From positions 1 to 26,339 of the IMG/VR virus record IMGVR_UViG_3300031365_000012: a stretch of DNA of 26,339 nt; one strand, given 5' to 3'. The notes below the pieces were generated by a model that did no database searches, was not told where the DNA came from, and saw only the letters and a program-made list of their open reading frames with translations. The position numbers and the translations under genes were made by a program. Of this stretch, positions 1,134 to 16,077 are shown in pieces. The DNA is from a virus. How positions within the stretch are numbered: the first letter of the stretch is position 1; each line of letters starts with the position of its first letter.

Positions 1134-1595
1134 ATGGCTAAACTAGGTAGAAAATGTAAATTAACCCCCGAATTACAATCAAAAATATGTAAGTATATAG
1201 AAGATGGTAATTATGCCATCCATGCCTGTAGTGCTGTCGGTATAAATGCTAGTACTTTCTATGACTGGATTAAACGAGGTGAACTGGATAGTTCTAGTAA
1301 TAGTAATACCAAATTCTCCAACTTCTACAATTCTATAAAAGAAGCTGAAGGCAGGTCTGTTGTCTTCCATATGGAAAACATACATAAGGCAGCAGAAGCA
1401 GGTGAATGGGCAGCGTCTATGACATGGCTAGAGAGAAGGTTTCCAGATATGTTCGGCAAGAGAACAGTAGAACCAGTAATAGAGAATAAAATCCTTATAC
1501 AACTAAGAGAATCAGGTCAAGAGATGTTAGCTATAAATACGAGTAAATCAACCCCCCTGATTACGACTAGCGTGACAGAGCGTGACAGCCCGTGA
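1134..1595 (+). CDS. Helix-turn-helix protein of the small-terminase type, 153 aa
   Basis: The N-terminal 50 residues read as the HTH typical of phage terminase small subunits and related DNA-packaging proteins: LTPELQSKICKYIEDGNY, a turn, ACSAVGINASTFYDWIKRGE. In the family this domain binds the packaging start site. A second helical part follows (residues 65-105: FYNSIKEAEG, then AASMTWLERRFPDMFG), which also matches that family, where E-A-E and A-x-WxLER motifs are common. The C-terminal 25 residues are polar and probably disordered, and are encoded by the first CGTGACA repeats. The gene stands 3 kb before the large terminase. The SD is weak (AAGAGA), with a TATATA stretch directly before ATG. 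A transcriptional regulator is the main alternative. Confidence 0.7.
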   Translation: MAKLGRKCKLTPELQSKICKYIEDGNYAIHACSAVGINASTFYDWIKRGELDSSSNSNTKFSNFYNSIKEAEGRSVVFHMENIHKAAEAGEWAASMTWLERRFPDMFGKRTVEPVIENKILIQLRESGQEMLAINTSKSTPLITTSVTERDSP

Positions 1596-1704
1596 CAATG
1601 CGTGACACAAAGCTAAATGATGTCATTATATATACAGCGTGACAACCTCGGACAAACCGTGACGAGTCGTGACAAAACAAGGTATATCGTGACAAACCGT
1701 GACA
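1571..1704 (+). repeat. CGTGACA direct-repeat array with 10-bp phasing
   Basis: CGTGACA occurs at 1571, 1581, 1591, 1601, 1638, 1668, 1688 and 1698, with CGTGACG at 1658 and a degenerate TCGGACA at 1648. Within each of the two blocks (1571-1607 and 1638-1704) all starts fall on a strict 10-bp register; only the 1678 slot is empty. The blocks are separated by a gap carrying the palindrome AATGA-TG-TCATT (1616-1627). All copies point the same way. Same-strand, one-turn-spaced iterons are typical of protein-loading sites: a pac/terminase-binding site, a replication origin or an operator. The first three copies lie inside the 3' end of the HTH gene. Confidence 0.9.
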
Positions 1705-3017: not shown

Positions 3018-3115
3018 AGGGGATTAAGATTGACTGGATGGAAGTGCTGATGTGCTTCATATTTTGTGAAAGCCTCCACCTGATTAGCAATGCAGTTGTT
3101 AGGCTAATAACGTAG
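3014..3115 (+). CDS. Small ORF, 33 aa, TTG start overlapping upstream stop
   Basis: TTG at 3014 overlaps the preceding TGA and has a good AAGGGG Shine-Dalgarno 7-8 nt upstream. The peptide (MKGIKIDWMEVLMCFIF, then CESLHLISNAVVRLIT) is a likely amphipathic to hydrophobic helix with two cysteines. Its TAG (3113-3115) overlaps the first bases of the tRNA-Met. Not recognised. The coupling geometry is the same as at 2755 and 4361, which supports it. Confidence 0.5.
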   Translation: MKGIKIDWMEVLMCFIFCESLHLISNAVVRLIT

Positions 3116-3184
3116 CGGGGGAGTGAGACAGTAACACGCAGGATTCATAACCCTGAAAACTGGGTGCAATTCCTAGCCCCGCCA
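3114..3184 (+). tRNA. tRNA-Met (anticodon CAT), slightly atypical
   Basis: A cloverleaf folds: acceptor AGCGGGG against CCCCGCC (six pairs plus an A1.C72 mismatch), D-stem GTG/CAC, anticodon stem CAGGA/CCCTG with loop TTCATAA (anticodon CAT), and T-arm CTGGG-TGCAATT-CCTAG. The sequence around the anticodon (TTCATAACCC) is typical of Met tRNAs. The mismatch at 1-72 is reminiscent of initiator tRNAs, although those carry C1.A72. The D-loop is short and lacks the GG pair, A31.C39 is unpaired, and no CCA is complete in the gene (ends CCATT). It could be an elongator Met, an initiator, or an Ile2 (lysidine) species. Confidence 0.75.
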
Positions 3185-3193
3185 TTAAATTGA

Positions 3194-3416
3194 GCCTATC
3201 TGCCACGTGCAGAAAAGGTACTGACTTCGCTAAGCCAATTAGGGCGGAATTGTCGGGTAACCGAAATGTCCTTGGTGCAAATCCATTAGGCGGAGTTTGC
3301 TAGGTGCTGGTGTCTGTCCTGAAAAGATGGTAATTATCGGTTGCATAATGTAAGTAGCTATGGACGCATAGTGAAAAGTCAGAGGACAATGGGAAGCGTG
3401 TCCGAGCCAGCATCTA
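3194..3416 (+). ncRNA. Candidate structured RNA between two tRNAs
   Basis: No coding frame is apparent, yet the stretch is full of pairing. The 3' domain is closed by a 10-bp helix, TAGGTGCTGG (3301-3310) with CCAGCATCTA (3407-3416), only one pair being G.U. Inside lies TGTCCTGA (3315-3322) with TCA-GA-GGACA (3379-3388), then hairpins ATTAT/ATAAT (3333-3349) and CTATG-GACG-CATAG (3358-3371). The 5' domain has GCCTA/TAGGC (3194-3198, 3287-3291) enclosing TCTGC-CACGT-GCAGA (3199-3213), a TTCGCTAA/TTA-GGGCG-type hairpin (3226-3249), TCGG-GTAA-CCGA with a GNRA loop (3253-3264), and a T-loop-like GG-TGCAAAT-CC (3274-3284). I do not recognise the class. Confidence 0.5.
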
Positions 3417-3419
3417 TAC

Positions 3420-3493
3420 GACTCTGTGGTGTAGTGGCAGCATCACACCCTGTCGAGGTGTAGGTACGGGTTCAAGTCCCGTCAGGGTCGCCA
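3420..3493 (+). tRNA. tRNA-Asp (anticodon GTC) with encoded CCA
   Basis: A canonical cloverleaf: acceptor GACTCTG with CAGGGTC (one G.U), D-arm containing TAGTGGCAGCA, anticodon stem ACACC/GGTGT with loop CTGTCGA (anticodon GTC), T-arm ACGGG-TTCAAGT-CCCGT, discriminator G and a genome-encoded CCA at 3491-3493. All stems are intact, so it should be functional. It lies 34 nt before a zinc-ribbon gene and directly after the structured RNA. Phage tRNAs commonly compensate for codon-usage differences or host tRNA cleavage. Confidence 0.95.
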
Positions 3494-4364: not shown

Positions 4365-4729
4365 CCGATGAAAAAAGGATAAAGACTACAAGGGAAACGG
4401 CAGCAAAGTTCGAGAAGGAGTTTAGGAAGTACCAAAAACTTTTCGGACTTACTGGTTGGGATGTTAGCTTTATGGTAGCCCCGCTAGTTAATACAGTATC
4501 AGCGCTGCGCTATTCAGGAAGTGATTGTCTTGCTACCGTGACCCTTAATGATACGCTTCCTGTGCTTGATTCATCCCTATTAAATATTAAGAAAACTGCT
4601 AAACACGAAGCGATACATCTGCTATTGGCAAGATACGACTATGTAGCCAGTGCACGGTATATTGACTCAGAAGAACTTTTATTTGCAAATGAGGAGATTG
4701 TCGTTAAACTAACGGACATAATACCGTAA
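4361..4729 (+). CDS. Zinc metallopeptidase-like protein (HExxH), 122 aa
   Basis: The protein carries the zincin signature His82-Glu83-x2-His86 in the helix AKHEAIHLLLARY, preceded by a strand with ATVTLN and followed by Glu-rich EELLFANEEIV, where Glu111 or Glu112 could be the third ligand. N-terminal helix and W33-D34-V35 match small SprT-like/putative metallopeptidases often found beside phage terminase genes. The start is TTG at 4361, which overlaps the upstream TGA (TTGA) and follows only a weak SD; no alternative ATG exists. Its stop overlaps the TerL ATG (TAATG). A role in head maturation or host protein cleavage is possible but not shown. Confidence 0.7.
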   Translation: MTDEKRIKTTRETAAKFEKEFRKYQKLFGLTGWDVSFMVAPLVNTVSALRYSGSDCLATVTLNDTLPVLDSSLLNIKKTAKHEAIHLLLARYDYVASARYIDSEELLFANEEIVVKLTDIIP

Positions 4730-6099
4730 TGGGACTAGAGGAAGCAACGCAGTATATCTTCAAGGCTATAGGTTACGAACCCACAGATGCTCAGTGGGAA
4801 GTGCATCGTGACCCGACCAGACACAAACTTGTAACTGGAGGAGAAAGGGCTGGGAAGTCGAGGGTCAATGCCATGGAGATACTAAAACATTGGTATACTG
4901 ATATATGTATACCAAAGAAGGAGAATGCTCTCTATTGGCTAATTGGTGCTGACTATGAGGGAACACGTGGAGATTGGGAACATCTGGTAGAAGCCTTCGC
5001 AAAGTTGGGGCAGATTAAGTCTCTAACTAAGTCGATAGACCCTGCGCTGATGGTTCTCACTGATGGCACACAATTTGTCACAAAGTCGGCAAAGTACCCC
5101 GAGAAGATTGCTACCGTTGCTCCTGATGGAATCGGCGGATGTGAGGCTGCCCAGTTGGATTACGAGATTTTCCTGCGTGCTCGTTCAAGGGTTGCAGAGA
5201 AGCGAGGCTTCCTGAGCTTTACGGGAACGCTAGAAGAAGAAGAATACACAAGTTGGTATTCTGAATTGTATCAAGTTGGGCAGTCTCATAATAATCTTGA
5301 GCTTAAATCGTTCTCTATCCCATCGTGGTCTAATAAATATGTGTACCCAGAGGGAGAGACCGACCCAGAGATACTAAAGCTGAAAGCCGGTATGACCCAT
5401 GAGAGATTCATGGAGAGGTTTGCTGGAGTACCCGCTCCTAAGACAGGAAGGGTAATCACTGAATTTGCTAATCCTATACATGTACAGCTATGTCCCTTTA
5501 ATAAGGACTTACCTGTGGAGATTGGCATAGATGTAGGTTTCAAGGGAGCTTATGCTGTTGAAGCCGTACAAGAGGTAAATGGACAGTTTCGGTGTATAGA
5601 TGAGGTTTATCTGACAGGCTATGTTACAGAGGATGTTATCACTATATGCCAGAAGAAACCCTGGTGGGATAATGTCATAGGTGGCGCTATCGATATAGCT
5701 GGCACACAACATCAAGGCATGACCTCCCCTGTAGAAGTTTGGGGGAGCAAGGGGCATGTTGCCTTGGTCTATAAGAAGGTGAATGTAGAGGACGGGATAG
5801 ACCTGTTCCGCACTCAGCTAAAACAGCATCCCATTACCTTGCAGGCAGGCTTTGTGTTTGACCCTAAATGCAGAGGGGTTATCTCAGAGATGGGTGGAGG
5901 GCGACCACCTCTAGAAGAAGGTGGTGGTATATGGATGAGAGACAAGAATACAGGCGTGGCTCTCCGCAAGAATGACCATGGATGCAAGGCAGTAATATAC
6001 CTTCTGGCAAACAAGTTTTTATATACAGTAAAGGGTGACAGAATGCCCAGTATAAGGTTTATAGGGCAGCCTGCAACCCAAACCTTTAGAGGGAGATAA
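4729..6099 (+). CDS. terL: Terminase large subunit
   Basis: The DNA-packaging motor ATPase/nuclease, which translocates the genome into the prohead and cuts concatemers. N-terminal ATPase: Walker A GGERAGKS (Gly37-Ser44) after an adenine-motif-like PTDAQWEVHR (residues 18-27); the Walker B region reads GIGGCEAAQLD (134-144), with Glu139 as probable catalytic acid but Cys138 where Asp is usual. Motif III-like LSFTGTLEEE follows. C-terminal RNase H-like nuclease: Asp268 in EIGIDVGFKG, Asp322 in GAIDIAG and Asp416 in the NDHGCKAVIYLL segment. Length (456 aa) is normal. It overlaps the metallopeptidase-like gene by 1 nt and is followed after 5 nt by the portal gene, the classic order. Confidence 0.93.
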   Translation: MGLEEATQYIFKAIGYEPTDAQWEVHRDPTRHKLVTGGERAGKSRVNAMEILKHWYTDICIPKKENALYWLIGADYEGTRGDWEHLVEAFAKLGQIKSLTKSIDPALMVLTDGTQFVTKSAKYPEKIATVAPDGIGGCEAAQLDYEIFLRARSRVAEKRGFLSFTGTLEEEEYTSWYSELYQVGQSHNNLELKSFSIPSWSNKYVYPEGETDPEILKLKAGMTHERFMERFAGVPAPKTGRVITEFANPIHVQLCPFNKDLPVEIGIDVGFKGAYAVEAVQEVNGQFRCIDEVYLTGYVTEDVITICQKKPWWDNVIGGAIDIAGTQHQGMTSPVEVWGSKGHVALVYKKVNVEDGIDLFRTQLKQHPITLQAGFVFDPKCRGVISEMGGGRPPLEEGGGIWMRDKNTGVALRKNDHGCKAVIYLLANKFLYTVKGDRMPSIRFIGQPATQTFRGR

Positions 6100-8977: not shown

Positions 8978-11900
8978 ATGGAATGGTGGAAAACCACTGA
9001 TATAGTTAATAGTTTTGCAAATAGCGTTGACGCTATGGCAAACAAGGCTATTAGCGCATATACAAATAAATATCAAGAGTTAATGACTCAGAACGCCGAG
9101 ACCGAGAGGCTGAGAAACTGGCAACAACAAGAATACTTTAAGAATATAAGCAGGGCTAAAAGGACTGCCAATGCCGAGGATAGGCTAAGGAGAGCTAATG
9201 AAAATCTCTTGGAGCTAGGCTTTACTGACCAGATTCCAATAACCCAAGATACCATTAATAGTGAGATGTCTGGGGGATTTGCCAGTTCTATTGTTCAGGA
9301 GGCTTTAACTGGGGCTTCCCAGGCTAGGGAAAAAGAACTCCGAAAAGCTGCCGAGCATGATGTGAAACTTGTAACACCTAACTGGAACAAGCTCACATAT
9401 GAAGAACAACAGGATTTGATAGAACAGAACTACCAGGTTAAGTTCAGGGCTCTGTATCCTGCTGGCAAGTATTCTCTGTCTGACCCGGGTAGTTTTCCAT
9501 ACCAGTATTCTGTTGATAAACTTGTTGAAGGTGGCTACATGGAAGCGCCACCAGTGCAAGGAGAACCAGTAACAAGTATTGAGGAATGGTATCCAAATGC
9601 AGTTATTTCTGAACAAGGTGTAGAGATTGAAAATGGGCTTACACTTATGCCCGATTATTCTGTTGTTAGTAGCAATCAAACAATAGGAAGAATAGACCCC
9701 AAGACTGGAGATTTTATAGAAAAAGAGTTAGCTTGGTGGGAGAAATTAAGAAATGTCGTAAGCTGGCTTCCTCCCAATATACCAGCAACCCTTATACAGA
9801 AATACGGTTTTGCAGTCATAGAGAAGGCTGACGTACCCTTTATGATACAAGACCACGCATTAGAGTTGAATAAGAGAGGGAATCTAACTGCTGAAGAATC
9901 AGCTTTTATGGATTTGTATAAAGATGAAGTTGGCGAACCGCCTACTGAGAACCTATTACTGTCTATAATACATCAGCCTATAAATATTATTAAGACTTGG
10001 GCTGGTGCTGATTTAAGTCCATCAGAAGAACTCAAAGAGGCATATTATAACAGTGCGGGCATTGCTACTCGCATGCTGCATGGTATAGCCACGCCATTAT
10101 CGGTAGCCTTGTTCACTGCGGGTGGACTAGGTGGAGCTACGGCAGGAGAAGCACGACTCGCAAAAATAGCCGAACAAGGGGGTGCTGTTGGCAGGGCTGC
10201 CCAAGTCGGGCAGGTAGCTGTTGCTCCATTGGCAGGTTTTGAGTGGGCAGCAGGGAAGGTTATTCAATTACCAATTAGGGGAGCTAGTGCTGCATTAAAT
10301 AAAATACTACAGAAATATGTTGAGAAATATGGACACCACTTACAGTTTGTAGCCAGAGCAAAGCCCAATGTTACACCAATGTCTGCCTTAAACCGTGTTC
10401 TCTATAAAGTTATGAATTATCATGGACACTGGTTATCTAAAAAGGTTGACGCTCTCATACTTGCCCAGAAAGCTGCTACTAAAGCCACTACCCCAGTAGC
10501 TAGGACAGCAGCTCAAACCCAGATTCATTTACTAGAGGGCGAAATAAAGACAGCTACGCAGACTATGGATAACATAGTAGGGACTATCACAAGTGGCAAG
10601 GAATTAACAGCAGCATCTATAGCTGGATTAGTGGGTAAAAACACGCCTGCTGAATTTGTGTCAGGGATAACCAATATTGTTAAAGCTGGTGCTACTGCGG
10701 GGGCTGCTCCAATTATCGCTACTACTGGTGAAGTCTTTACTTCCACAGTTTATCGTGGTGCTACATTAGCCCCCACAGACGAAGGAACAGTCGGCAAAGC
10801 AGAATACTGGACAACAGACCCTCAATATGCTGCGACATACGGAACGGTAATAGAATCTAAAGTAACCCTTAATAACCCTCTTGTTATCAACACTCAAAAA
10901 GAATGGAATGAGTTTGCTTTAAGAACTAGGGAATTAAGAGATACTGCCGTTCAACAAGGCAAAGACGAAGATTGGGTTCAAGCGACATTAAGAACCCAGT
11001 TAGAAAAAGAAGGGTATGACGGCGTAGTGATAGGAGAAGGGATTGTAGAGAAGGGGAAACAAATAGCCGTATTCCACCCAGAAGAAGCTGTTAAGGAATT
11101 TGCCCCTACTACCGCTATGGTGGAGGGGGGGGCTGTTAGTGGAAAGACTGAAGAAATCCCTGTTAATGCCACGACTGAGGCAGAGAATCTGCTTACAAAG
11201 ATTGGAGATGAATGGGTGGCTGGAAGACCTGGTATTGGGCTTACAAATAACCAAATAGCCCGTGCTAAGGCAGGAATCGCCACGATTGCTAAAAAGTATG
11301 GCATAGATAAAAATACACTCTGGAAGAATGTATGGTGGGAAGCTGAGGTTAAACCTGAAGTAGTTGAAGCTCCATTAACCGAAGAACAAATAGGGGAACT
11401 GATAAAAACTGTCATTACTCCAGTAGCGAAACCCACTGCAACTGCAGGGGAAGTTACTGCAATACCCACAGAGGGTAAGATGATACCCAAAGTTGCACCT
11501 GAAACTACCGCCCTAGCCGAAGGAACAATATCAGGAGAAATCCCCGAGGGCGCAGTTGAGGTTACTGGCATGGCGATGTCGCCCCAAGAACTAGCAAGCA
11601 TCAGGCAAAACATTATGGCGGTTGGCAAGGTAAAGGGATTATCCAAAACTGCTCTTAATGATATGTTCAGGCAAATTGCGGGGCGCACTCCTGATAACCG
11701 ACAGATGCCTTGGCGATTAACAGAAATGACTGATGAGCAGTTGCGGGATACTTTGGAGATAATCAAAACAGCCCGCCCCATAAGAATTAGACAGAAGATA
11801 GTTATTAAGCCCTCTACGGAAAAGAAGATTCTGTCGCTAAAGCAATCGCTTATTAACGAAGGCAAGCTCTCAGAAGAAGCCTTTGACAATATGGTTGAGC

Positions 11901-14266
11901 AGCTAAACCTTCCCACAACTCGTTATGAAACTGCCCAGAGGTTTATCACCGAGAAAGAGGGAAAGTCCTTAATCCGACTGATGAATGATGAGGCAGAAAT
12001 AGGACTTATTGAGCATCAGGCACAGGTTGACAGGGCACTGGCTACCCATCCCAAGGTAAAGACTGCCATTGATGCTATTGACAAAGGCATTGCGCAGAAG
12101 GGTGCTCCGTATATAGAGGGACTTCCGCCTGACCTGCATTGGAAAACAGAGATGCTAAAGGATATGCGTTTCTTCACGGAAGACCTGCAAATTCGCACAG
12201 GCAAGCCGTTCTATGATGTTTATTTCGGGCTCAACAGGCAGCACCTTGCCAATGATGCCTATATTGGTGAGGTTTTTGACAGGATTGCCATTTCAACCCC
12301 AGAATACAATAAGATTAGGAATAACAAGGCTGCCATGACAAGGGTTAGGAATTGGATTGCAGCCAAGCAAAAATGGACTAGCGTTAAATCTCCCAAGGAT
12401 ATTACGCCAGAGGAGATTAAGTTAGCCCGTGCATACGAAAAGGCATTATGGGCAGAAGTGCCTGACTTTAAGTATCATCGCTTTCTACATCATTATGAAG
12501 CAACAGAGGGCGATGTTCACAAGATGGTAGAGCATTACAAGGATGCCCCCATAGAGGAATTAAGAATGGCTGTCAATACTTACGAGAGGCAGGGGGCAAC
12601 TGCGTTAAGGAATTATCTTGATACAAAGGACTGGGGAATTATAGGCAGTGGTTACGAACCACACTATGTTGTAAGCCCTCAGTTGGCAATGCGGAGATTA
12701 AAGGCTACGTTTGCAACAAGGCGACTTGAGCCTAGAACGGGAGTGGAATTTTACCCTGAAGATATAACAATAGACCATGCGGTAAGACGATATATTGCAC
12801 AAGTGAGGAATTACAATCTTCAGCCTTATGTCAGGAAGCTAAATCAACTCTATGGGGAAGCCTTGCCTCAATTCAAAAACCCGCAGAGAATTAATCAAGC
12901 CCTTACGGGAATGATGAGGGAGATGCTTGGGTATAAAGACCGTTCCTTCTTGGGCGAACTAGCCATGAAGGTGGCTTCTCAGGCATATATTGTAATCTTT
13001 GGAACTTCTATTGACCTGCCCTTCAGGAATATATTTCAGAATCTTTCCTATGCGACTCACAAGACGGCTATTATTGACCCTAGGAACGAGAAGCTCCCCG
13101 ATTACAACAAACATTGGTATCAGGTAAACACTACCCAAATGGGTGCTATTAAAAGGCATCAGTTATTGGCAGAGGAGGGAGGGTTGCCTCCGTTTAGGAG
13201 AGCTAATAGGGCTGTTCTACGCCTAAACCTATATGGGTTATCAGATGACAAGGTAAACCGCCTGCCACACTTTTGGGGAATGTGGAATAAGGCTAACAGG
13301 GCATTAACTAACTATCAAGAGGACGGCGATGTAGGGAAATTTATGAAGGATTCTGGTATGAACGAAATGACCATGACCCAACAGAAACAAGTGCTAGAAC
13401 TCCTAGCCCTTGATAATGTTAATTATGACGTTGTTGGAACAACGGATGGCGGGACTGCTGCTACTCTGGAAATTGCCAACGAGGTAACTAACAATGTGCA
13501 TTTCCTCTACGACAGGGCACAACGAGCAGCCATAGAACATAGTGAAGGCGGGCGTATTATAGGTAGCCTGAGTATTTTCTCAAGGAGTGTGGGGCAAAGG
13601 GTGGTCAAGCAAATAAATGTTTTGAGACCCAATAGTGGTGCTAGTTCTGCTTCAAAGAAAGCTGCTTTGAAGGTACTATACTCTATGCTTTGGGGTAGTT
13701 TGGCTGCCAATTATCTCTACCAAAAGGCAACGGGAAAGACTCGTGCCCCTTACAATCCACTCAATCTTTTAACATGGCAAGCAGGTGGGTTGGCATTGGG
13801 GGCTATACAGCAACTTACCGAGGTTTCTGGGCTGATGTTTATGGCTATGGGGGGTAATGATTGGGCAAAAACTCAATTACCCATTACTATAACACAGGCA
13901 GGGGATACCTTCGTGCCTTGGTATAAATCTGCCATGCGACTTATAGAAGTCATGGTAGAGAAAAAGCATCTCGATAGATTACTTGCAAGAGAACTAATAT
14001 CAATCATTGATAAGACAATGGTTGAGATGGGATTCTTGGATGAGGCTTATCAACCGAATGAATCCTACTATGATGCTGAACGTAGTGGAGAATGGATGTT
14101 AAAACATGCTTTATTCGGAACAGACCCAGATGAAGAAGTTGCGAGGAAGGCAACGGCAAAGGATATGTATGCAAAAGTATGGGGCTACGAGAGTTGGGCT
14201 GATTTACCTGAAGGAAATGCTAATACCGCAGGTACAAGGGCTCATTTCAATAGCCTAAATTCTTAG
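8978..14266 (+). CDS. Giant polyvalent/ejection-type protein with ADP-ribosyltransferase-like domain, 1762 aa
   Basis: One intact frame covers a fifth of the window. N-terminus: coiled coil (about residues 10-90). Residues 367-440 are Ala/Gly-rich and membrane-prone (ATPLSVALFTAGG). Residues about 590-707 have ART features: VYRGA (Arg593), EYWTTDPQYAATYG (Trp611-Thr613, Tyr621), LNNPLVI, GYDGVVI and KQIAVFHPEEA, which match the ART-PolyVal type that transfers ADP-ribose from NAD+. The catalytic Glu is not certain. Pro/Thr/Glu linkers follow (about 790-865). The C-terminal half is helical and contains YEPHY and a FLYDRAQRAA-x-GRIIGSLSIFSRS block (about 1507-1535), a recurrent polyvalent/ejection-protein pattern, plus hydrophobic segments near 1564-1580 and 1604-1628. 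Position before scaffold/capsid suggests an internal virion protein delivered with DNA; that is inference. SD is weak. Confidence 0.75.
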   Translation: MEWWKTTDIVNSFANSVDAMANKAISAYTNKYQELMTQNAETERLRNWQQQEYFKNISRAKRTANAEDRLRRANENLLELGFTDQIPITQDTINSEMSGGFASSIVQEALTGASQAREKELRKAAEHDVKLVTPNWNKLTYEEQQDLIEQNYQVKFRALYPAGKYSLSDPGSFPYQYSVDKLVEGGYMEAPPVQGEPVTSIEEWYPNAVISEQGVEIENGLTLMPDYSVVSSNQTIGRIDPKTGDFIEKELAWWEKLRNVVSWLPPNIPATLIQKYGFAVIEKADVPFMIQDHALELNKRGNLTAEESAFMDLYKDEVGEPPTENLLLSIIHQPINIIKTWAGADLSPSEELKEAYYNSAGIATRMLHGIATPLSVALFTAGGLGGATAGEARLAKIAEQGGAVGRAAQVGQVAVAPLAGFEWAAGKVIQLPIRGASAALNKILQKYVEKYGHHLQFVARAKPNVTPMSALNRVLYKVMNYHGHWLSKKVDALILAQKAATKATTPVARTAAQTQIHLLEGEIKTATQTMDNIVGTITSGKELTAASIAGLVGKNTPAEFVSGITNIVKAGATAGAAPIIATTGEVFTSTVYRGATLAPTDEGTVGKAEYWTTDPQYAATYGTVIESKVTLNNPLVINTQKEWNEFALRTRELRDTAVQQGKDEDWVQATLRTQLEKEGYDGVVIGEGIVEKGKQIAVFHPEEAVKEFAPTTAMVEGGAVSGKTEEIPVNATTEAENLLTKIGDEWVAGRPGIGLTNNQIARAKAGIATIAKKYGIDKNTLWKNVWWEAEVKPEVVEAPLTEEQIGELIKTVITPVAKPTATAGEVTAIPTEGKMIPKVAPETTALAEGTISGEIPEGAVEVTGMAMSPQELASIRQNIMAVGKVKGLSKTALNDMFRQIAGRTPDNRQMPWRLTEMTDEQLRDTLEIIKTARPIRIRQKIVIKPSTEKKILSLKQSLINEGKLSEEAFDNMVEQLNLPTTRYETAQRFITEKEGKSLIRLMNDEAEIGLIEHQAQVDRALATHPKVKTAIDAIDKGIAQKGAPYIEGLPPDLHWKTEMLKDMRFFTEDLQIRTGKPFYDVYFGLNRQHLANDAYIGEVFDRIAISTPEYNKIRNNKAAMTRVRNWIAAKQKWTSVKSPKDITPEEIKLARAYEKALWAEVPDFKYHRFLHHYEATEGDVHKMVEHYKDAPIEELRMAVNTYERQGATALRNYLDTKDWGIIGSGYEPHYVVSPQLAMRRLKATFATRRLEPRTGVEFYPEDITIDHAVRRYIAQVRNYNLQPYVRKLNQLYGEALPQFKNPQRINQALTGMMREMLGYKDRSFLGELAMKVASQAYIVIFGTSIDLPFRNIFQNLSYATHKTAIIDPRNEKLPDYNKHWYQVNTTQMGAIKRHQLLAEEGGLPPFRRANRAVLRLNLYGLSDDKVNRLPHFWGMWNKANRALTNYQEDGDVGKFMKDSGMNEMTMTQQKQVLELLALDNVNYDVVGTTDGGTAATLEIANEVTNNVHFLYDRAQRAAIEHSEGGRIIGSLSIFSRSVGQRVVKQINVLRPNSGASSASKKAALKVLYSMLWGSLAANYLYQKATGKTRAPYNPLNLLTWQAGGLALGAIQQLTEVSGLMFMAMGGNDWAKTQLPITITQAGDTFVPWYKSAMRLIEVMVEKKHLDRLLARELISIIDKTMVEMGFLDEAYQPNESYYDAERSGEWMLKHALFGTDPDEEVARKATAKDMYAKVWGYESWADLPEGNANTAGTRAHFNSLNS

Positions 14267-15225: not shown

Positions 15226-16077
15226 ATGGCTAATGACCCAACCTTAGCCGAAATGAAGACTGGCGATTGGATTGGAGAAGCATTTAGTAAGGATGTAATA
15301 ATCCACACTAAGTCTGCTCTGGTCGTGGCTGGTGCTAGTAACACTAGCTATCGCTCGGATTTGAAAGTCGGCTATAAAGTAAGTATTCCCGTGTTGTCAG
15401 AGCCAAGCGCAGGTGCAGTCACCGCTGGAACTGAGCTAACCGCAGAAGATTGCGTTGGAACTCCCGCCAGTATTACCGTTGACCAATGGTACGGTGTACG
15501 TGTGGAGGAAAGCGAGATGCAGTCCGTGCAAGACCATGCCGATTATTTATCGAAGGCTGCACAGTCCTGTGGTTACGCTATCGCCAAGCAGGTTGATACT
15601 GCTCTGGGTGCGCTATTCTCAACTCTCGGTGGATATACCACGAGTGCTTACGGAGCGGACGGACAAACCTTTACGGATGACATCTTTATTTATCTGATGG
15701 AAACATTGGATGAGGCGGATGTTCCACAGGAAGACCGTTCACTAATCGTAGACCCGTCAACCAAAGCAGACTTACTCAAGATTGATAAGTTTGTCAGGAA
15801 CGACTATATTCGTGGGACTCCCATCGTGTCAGGACAGTTTGGTAGCCTGTATAATTCCAAGGTGCTTGTCACCAACAACCTCACCGCAGCTACTACCGGA
15901 CATTACGGCGTGTTGATGCAGAAGGACGCTATAGGGGTAATCCTTCAGAAAGACCCTTATTCTCAACGCATTCCTATGCCTTGGGAGCATCAAATCGTCT
16001 ATCAGGTCAAGGTTCTGTATGGCGTGGCGGAGCTTCGGGACACCTTTGGTGTACCGTTCTTCACGAGGAAGGCTTAA
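15226..16077 (+). CDS. Major capsid protein, HK97-fold type, 283 aa
   Basis: Main shell protein. The order of segments fits HK97-fold coats of the short P22/N4-gp56-like kind: a flexible N-arm, the strand pair KVGYKVSIPVLS, the VDQWYGVRVEESEMQSV segment, a long spine-like helix (DHADYLSKAAQSCGYAIAKQ) running into VDTALGAL, the RSLIVDPSTKADLL helix, then a P-domain/A-domain stretch (RGTPIVSGQFGSLYNSKVLV) and a beta-rich C-terminus (YQVKVLYGVAELRDTFGVPF). The length is compatible with a small coat. It follows the scaffold gene and is preceded by a good AGGAG. Stop overlaps the next ATG (TAATG). Confidence 0.85.
   Translation: MANDPTLAEMKTGDWIGEAFSKDVIIHTKSALVVAGASNTSYRSDLKVGYKVSIPVLSEPSAGAVTAGTELTAEDCVGTPASITVDQWYGVRVEESEMQSVQDHADYLSKAAQSCGYAIAKQVDTALGALFSTLGGYTTSAYGADGQTFTDDIFIYLMETLDEADVPQEDRSLIVDPSTKADLLKIDKFVRNDYIRGTPIVSGQFGSLYNSKVLVTNNLTAATTGHYGVLMQKDAIGVILQKDPYSQRIPMPWEHQIVYQVKVLYGVAELRDTFGVPFFTRKA

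Follow-up and report, generated by a model that had tools for sequence, protein, structure and literature searches.

A helically spaced heptad array beside a viral small terminase gene, with a conserved downstream element, is a candidate packaging-initiation site

Nine near-identical 7-base repeats (eight CGTGACA and one CGTGACG) lie at the 3' end of a small terminase (TerS) gene in the window analysed here, the 26,339 bp virus record IMGVR_UViG_3300031365_000012, and are followed about 70 bp downstream by a conserved noncoding element of ~90 bp. Together the array and the element form a candidate packaging-initiation site, cos- or pac-type, a reading that we judge on balance probable. It is favoured by the retention of arrays beside TerS while the repeated word changes among relatives, by the presence of the element between TerS and the large terminase (TerL) in 11 phages, and by the other iterons that complete relatives carry in their replication genes. 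Of the three functions listed in a first-pass annotation of this DNA, a pac/cos site is thus the best supported, with an origin and an operator keeping lower probabilities, as set out below.

All eight exact CGTGACA copies in the record are on the + strand within 1571-1704, with none outside, and start at 1571, 1581, 1591, 1601, 1638, 1668, 1688 and 1698; the shuffled window contains a mean of 1.5 and a maximum of 6. A CGTGACG copy starts at 1658 and a degenerate TCGGACA at 1648. The densest 7-mer per 140 bp reaches 8 copies in the window, compared with 4 or fewer in 100 dinucleotide shuffles. The repeats fall into a left block of four CGTGACA at 10 bp spacing (1571-1607, + strand), which overlaps the TerS 3' end, and a right block (1638-1704, + strand) of four CGTGACA, the CGTGACG and the degenerate copy in 10 bp register. 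Spacing inside each block is in exact multiples of 10 bp, the GTGAC starts modulo 10 being 2,2,2,2 on the left and 9,9,9,9,9 on the right, so that each block occupies one DNA face; as the blocks are offset by 37 bp, ~3.5 turns, the two faces are about opposite. The first-pass annotation had the copies, their single strand and the register of both blocks right, but its proposal of one DNA face across the whole 130 bp is rejected, left and right being out of phase. The palindrome it placed between the blocks is present (AATGA-TG-TCATT, 1616-1627) but loses its significance, since ~0.8 such inverted repeats are expected per 160 bp by chance and the relatives L005 and L007 have no copy; it is probably fortuitous, and was rejected as a conserved centre of the array. 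The entire left block appears, from sequence comparison, to be specific to the window, as L005 and L007 have a longer TerS 3' end and a right-like block only. AT-rich stretches flank the array, but the region as a whole looks AT-rich by eye. A literature search for phage CGTGACA repeats returned nothing relevant.

The gene that contains the first repeats in its 3' end (1134-1595, + strand) encodes a 153-residue protein with an N-terminal HTH, and its earlier description as small-terminase-like is confirmed by a match to phrog_4102, terminase small subunit (3e-30). The Pfam Sf6_terminase match is under cut-off (0.0013). An AlphaFold model of the protein has a mean pLDDT of 85 and its best PDB fold match is Sf6 TerS (3hef) with a probability of 0.99, but with an E-value of 0.046 and a TM-score of ~0.4. 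The TerL gene (4729-6099, + strand) matches phrog_2 (3.3e-12), the major capsid protein gene is at 15226-16077, and all identified genes from TerS on run rightward. A host search of bacterial genomes found no relative of this TerL.

The relatives compared form a clade defined by a TerL scan of viral contigs, at 43-100% identity. Arrays at the syntenic position, which the first-pass annotation took as the expectation for close relatives, are indeed found beside TerS: GTGACA arrays directly follow the gene in the window and in four more clade phages, as nine CGTGACA directly 3' of TerS in L005, five GTGACA and two GTGACT in L007, twelve GTGACA in L102 (four forward and eight inverted), and five GTGACA spanning the TerS stop in L020, which shares a contig with L161, whose TerL belongs to the clade (E 1.5e-249). 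In L005, L102 and L020 most sites are paired 10 bp apart, with pairs every 30-34 bp, and the right block of the window partly shows this finer unit, with site pairs 10 bp apart every ~30 bp. Other members have arrays of other words adjoining TerS, namely GCGTTACA (L010), TATGACG (L012), TCTAACA (L106) and GTTAACA (L013). Those of L010, L012 and L106 sit within a small ORF homologous among the three. This ORF, at 1272-1577 in L010, 4273-4557 in L012, 2421-2705 in L106 and also 185-394 in L099, where it adjoins an apparent truncated TerS end, encodes repeated G-(V/M/L)-T peptides; their codons are largely identical across repeats, which suggests that what has been kept is the word in the DNA and not the peptide. 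An imperfect palindrome like CTTCGCACAAC-N6-TTTGCGAC after TerS or the small ORF is common to L010, L012, L103 and L106, and is possibly a further part of the site. Array copy number ranges from 5 to 12 across relatives, which with the window-specific left block indicates fast turnover, as would suit repeats left behind by recent tandem duplication, or serving as a partition-type centromere, with no role in packaging. We consider this highly improbable, as the spacers differ between copies, which is not simple tandem duplication, the words are kept while the spacers change, the place of the array beside TerS is conserved, and no ParA/ParB-like gene was recognised in the window.

When 7-mers with four or more copies per 160 bp were tallied by hand, they were found around TerS at 10/10 clade loci (8 of them convincing) versus 1/108 control windows, a count in which L007/L095 was scored on an unrelated word and L103 on an AT-rich word, and in which L106 and L107 are near-copies. 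Across all 91 TerS loci of the wider family the effect is weak, with repeats near TerS in 23% versus 11%, and this weakens the packaging reading. A location in or beside terS that is conserved among relatives is what a cos or pac site should have, and is seen here; L103 and L104, which have TerS and the conserved element, show no clear array, and this too counts against the reading. So does the putative recognition helix of TerS, which starts NAS in the window, STV in L005 and SKA in L007 while the word is identical in all three. The covariation of helix and word known from lambda and 21 is therefore not seen in this small sample, though pac sites as a class are not defined by such covariation. 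In a TerS tree, with weak support, the phages with GTGACA arrays do not group into a single clade. Other dense repeat arrays were seen directly upstream of TerS genes, as twelve GGCGACG in L019 (199-436), a GC-rich contig, and as AGTTTCT arrays in L078 (3497-3907).

The conserved noncoding element (1773-1863, + strand), identified with nhmmer in 11 different phages that belong to the TerL clade, is the candidate cleavage or core part of the packaging site. It is located between TerS and TerL in all 11, the array-less L103 and L104 among them, and its match in L020 has an E-value of 1e-7. There is one full-length match per phage (11/11), to which L007 adds a weak partial second (21.9 bits), and the element is apparently single-copy. 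An RNA element was rejected, as Rfam matched only tRNAs and no consensus fold was obtained. A loose pattern search for the element across the viral contigs as a whole matched five clade members together with L372 and L374, the last two judged to be chance because both lie within unrelated coding sequence. Contig ends of the clade, taken as a proxy for termini, did not cluster. Just upstream of the element the stretch 1709-1770 shows good conservation in L005 and L007 and resembles a promoter by eye, and the array directly precedes the structural genes, a long block that runs rightward, as would be expected if it were a late-operon operator whose regulator, bound to the heptads, controls a promoter between array and structural genes. 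This seems to us improbable, given that a promoter scan of 1705-1970 gave no site, that the distance from array to conserved stretch varies widely among relatives, that 8-12 sites across 130-160 bp are long for an operator, and that the TerS gene itself is upstream of the array.

The strongest competing explanation is that the array is a replication origin, its iterons recognised by a phage initiator whose gene is outside the window. Origin iterons combine direct repeats on a helical register with an AT-rich unwinding region; the register is seen here, whereas the AT-rich stretches that flank the array lie in a region that looks AT-rich throughout. Many unrelated phages combine the CGTGACA word with 10 bp spacing. 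In a search of viral contigs with CGTGACANNNCGTGACA, 41/108 loci among the matches listed have at least two extra in-register cores, compared with 10/99 among the matches listed for the reversed word, the single control used. Of the distinct triple arrays among the matches listed, ~18/32 lie in or directly beside replication genes, namely inside O-like or DnaD-like initiators or beside primase or DnaB genes, as assigned by profile check for a subset and by eye for the remainder. For the word at large this favours an origin function, and it forms the chief objection to packaging. Terminase or capsid genes are the neighbours of another ~4/32 listed (L132, L213, L446 and L444), a number that does not clearly exceed chance. 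In L446 six CGTGACA at exact 10 bp spacing (1247-1303) have a TerS of a different family (phrog_51) ~1 kb away.

Within the clade of the window, in contrast, arrays of the CGTGACA word sit beside TerS and none at a replication gene; none of the genes in the 26,339 bp window was recognised as a replication gene, and the array is thus not seen in or next to an initiator or helicase gene, where origin iterons reside. Near-complete relatives (G001-G003) moreover have different iterons at or adjoining their replication genes. Two of these, G001 and G002, are circularly complete with 127-bp end repeats that are likely assembly overlap, and besides the TerS array they carry CTACACC iterons (21-bp spacing) inside a Lin1244_N/DnaD-type initiator gene and GTCTACA iterons inside a DnaB-like helicase gene, so that the origin is plausibly accounted for elsewhere. 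Further repeats lie in coding sequence of their structural region (AAGAGGA in G001, GGATTAA in G002), and in G003 GCGTGAA repeats are just upstream of a gene that by eye encodes an AAA replication protein and has no PHROG match. We accordingly regard the origin explanation as unlikely, though to be taken seriously. A little less likely still is a view that joins the two functions, in which one iteron word (CGTGACA in one-turn register) would serve origins and terminase-linked sites according to lineage; packaging sites may then have evolved from replication iterons or share a reader with them, and the array here would be a ladder docking one TerS subunit per turn.

If the array and element are indeed a packaging site, the array would be bound by a TerS oligomer whose HTH domains face outward, with one CGTGACA heptad engaged per helical turn and loading mainly on heptad pairs every three turns; the array-bound protein would then recruit TerL to the conserved element as the presumed region of cleavage, in either cos or pac mode. 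A simple one-way wrap of DNA around the ring fits poorly, since most L102 sites are inverted. In the pac site of P1 the cut region is flanked by two groups of short hexamer sites, which contain Dam sites and are located inside pacA. The two groups of short sites recall the array described here, whereas its heptad contains no GATC. The likeness to lambda-like cos (cosQ-cosN-cosB) consists in short recognition repeats beside terS with a more conserved core, and in a recognition word that differs where the core is the same, lambda and 21 having identical cosN and different R sites (PMC4669245). Lambda, however, carries an IHF site and three R sites whose orientation is mixed, whereas here there are 5-12 heptads mostly in a 10-11-bp register, the array is 3' of the TerS gene, and the cosN of this phage is at most a candidate role for the conserved element. 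In SPP1 pac, direct repeats next to terS differ from those of SF6 (PMC4737164), and in both phages, as here, the repeats overlap the terS region, are proposed TerS targets and vary between relatives (PMC4737164). SPP1 pac differs in spanning the terS start with three repeat sets, where the phage described here has one array of heptads at the 3' end of the gene. The DNA-binding domain of SF6 TerS shows little preference for pac repeats (PMC4737164), which weakens the packaging reading.

The way in which TerS recognises its own DNA has been called unclear and controversial, in vitro binding being weak for most pac phages (PMC9611059). This gives significance to a naturally occurring array whose identical heptads are spaced by exactly one turn, and whose place is taken in relatives by arrays of other words. 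The array and the relatives' words provide clean substrates and swaps for asking whether TerS reads sequence at all.

Other features were noted in the window and its relatives. Tandem coding repeats occur in L102 (2763-2949, 16 copies of AGCGGCA) and G003 (28347-28551, 17 copies of GACTGAA), in two proteins whose N-termini are alike by eye. Two tRNA genes lie between TerS and TerL in the window, at 3114-3184 and, for tRNA-Asp, at 3420-3490, and the stretch between them (within 3114-3490) looks structured and matches no Rfam family. A 1762-residue protein (8978-14266) has a weak match to ART-PolyVal, the ADP-ribosyltransferase in polyvalent proteins, over residues 607-702 (Pfam 1.4e-4, under cut-off), and counterparts of 1549-1872 residues occupy the same place in relatives.
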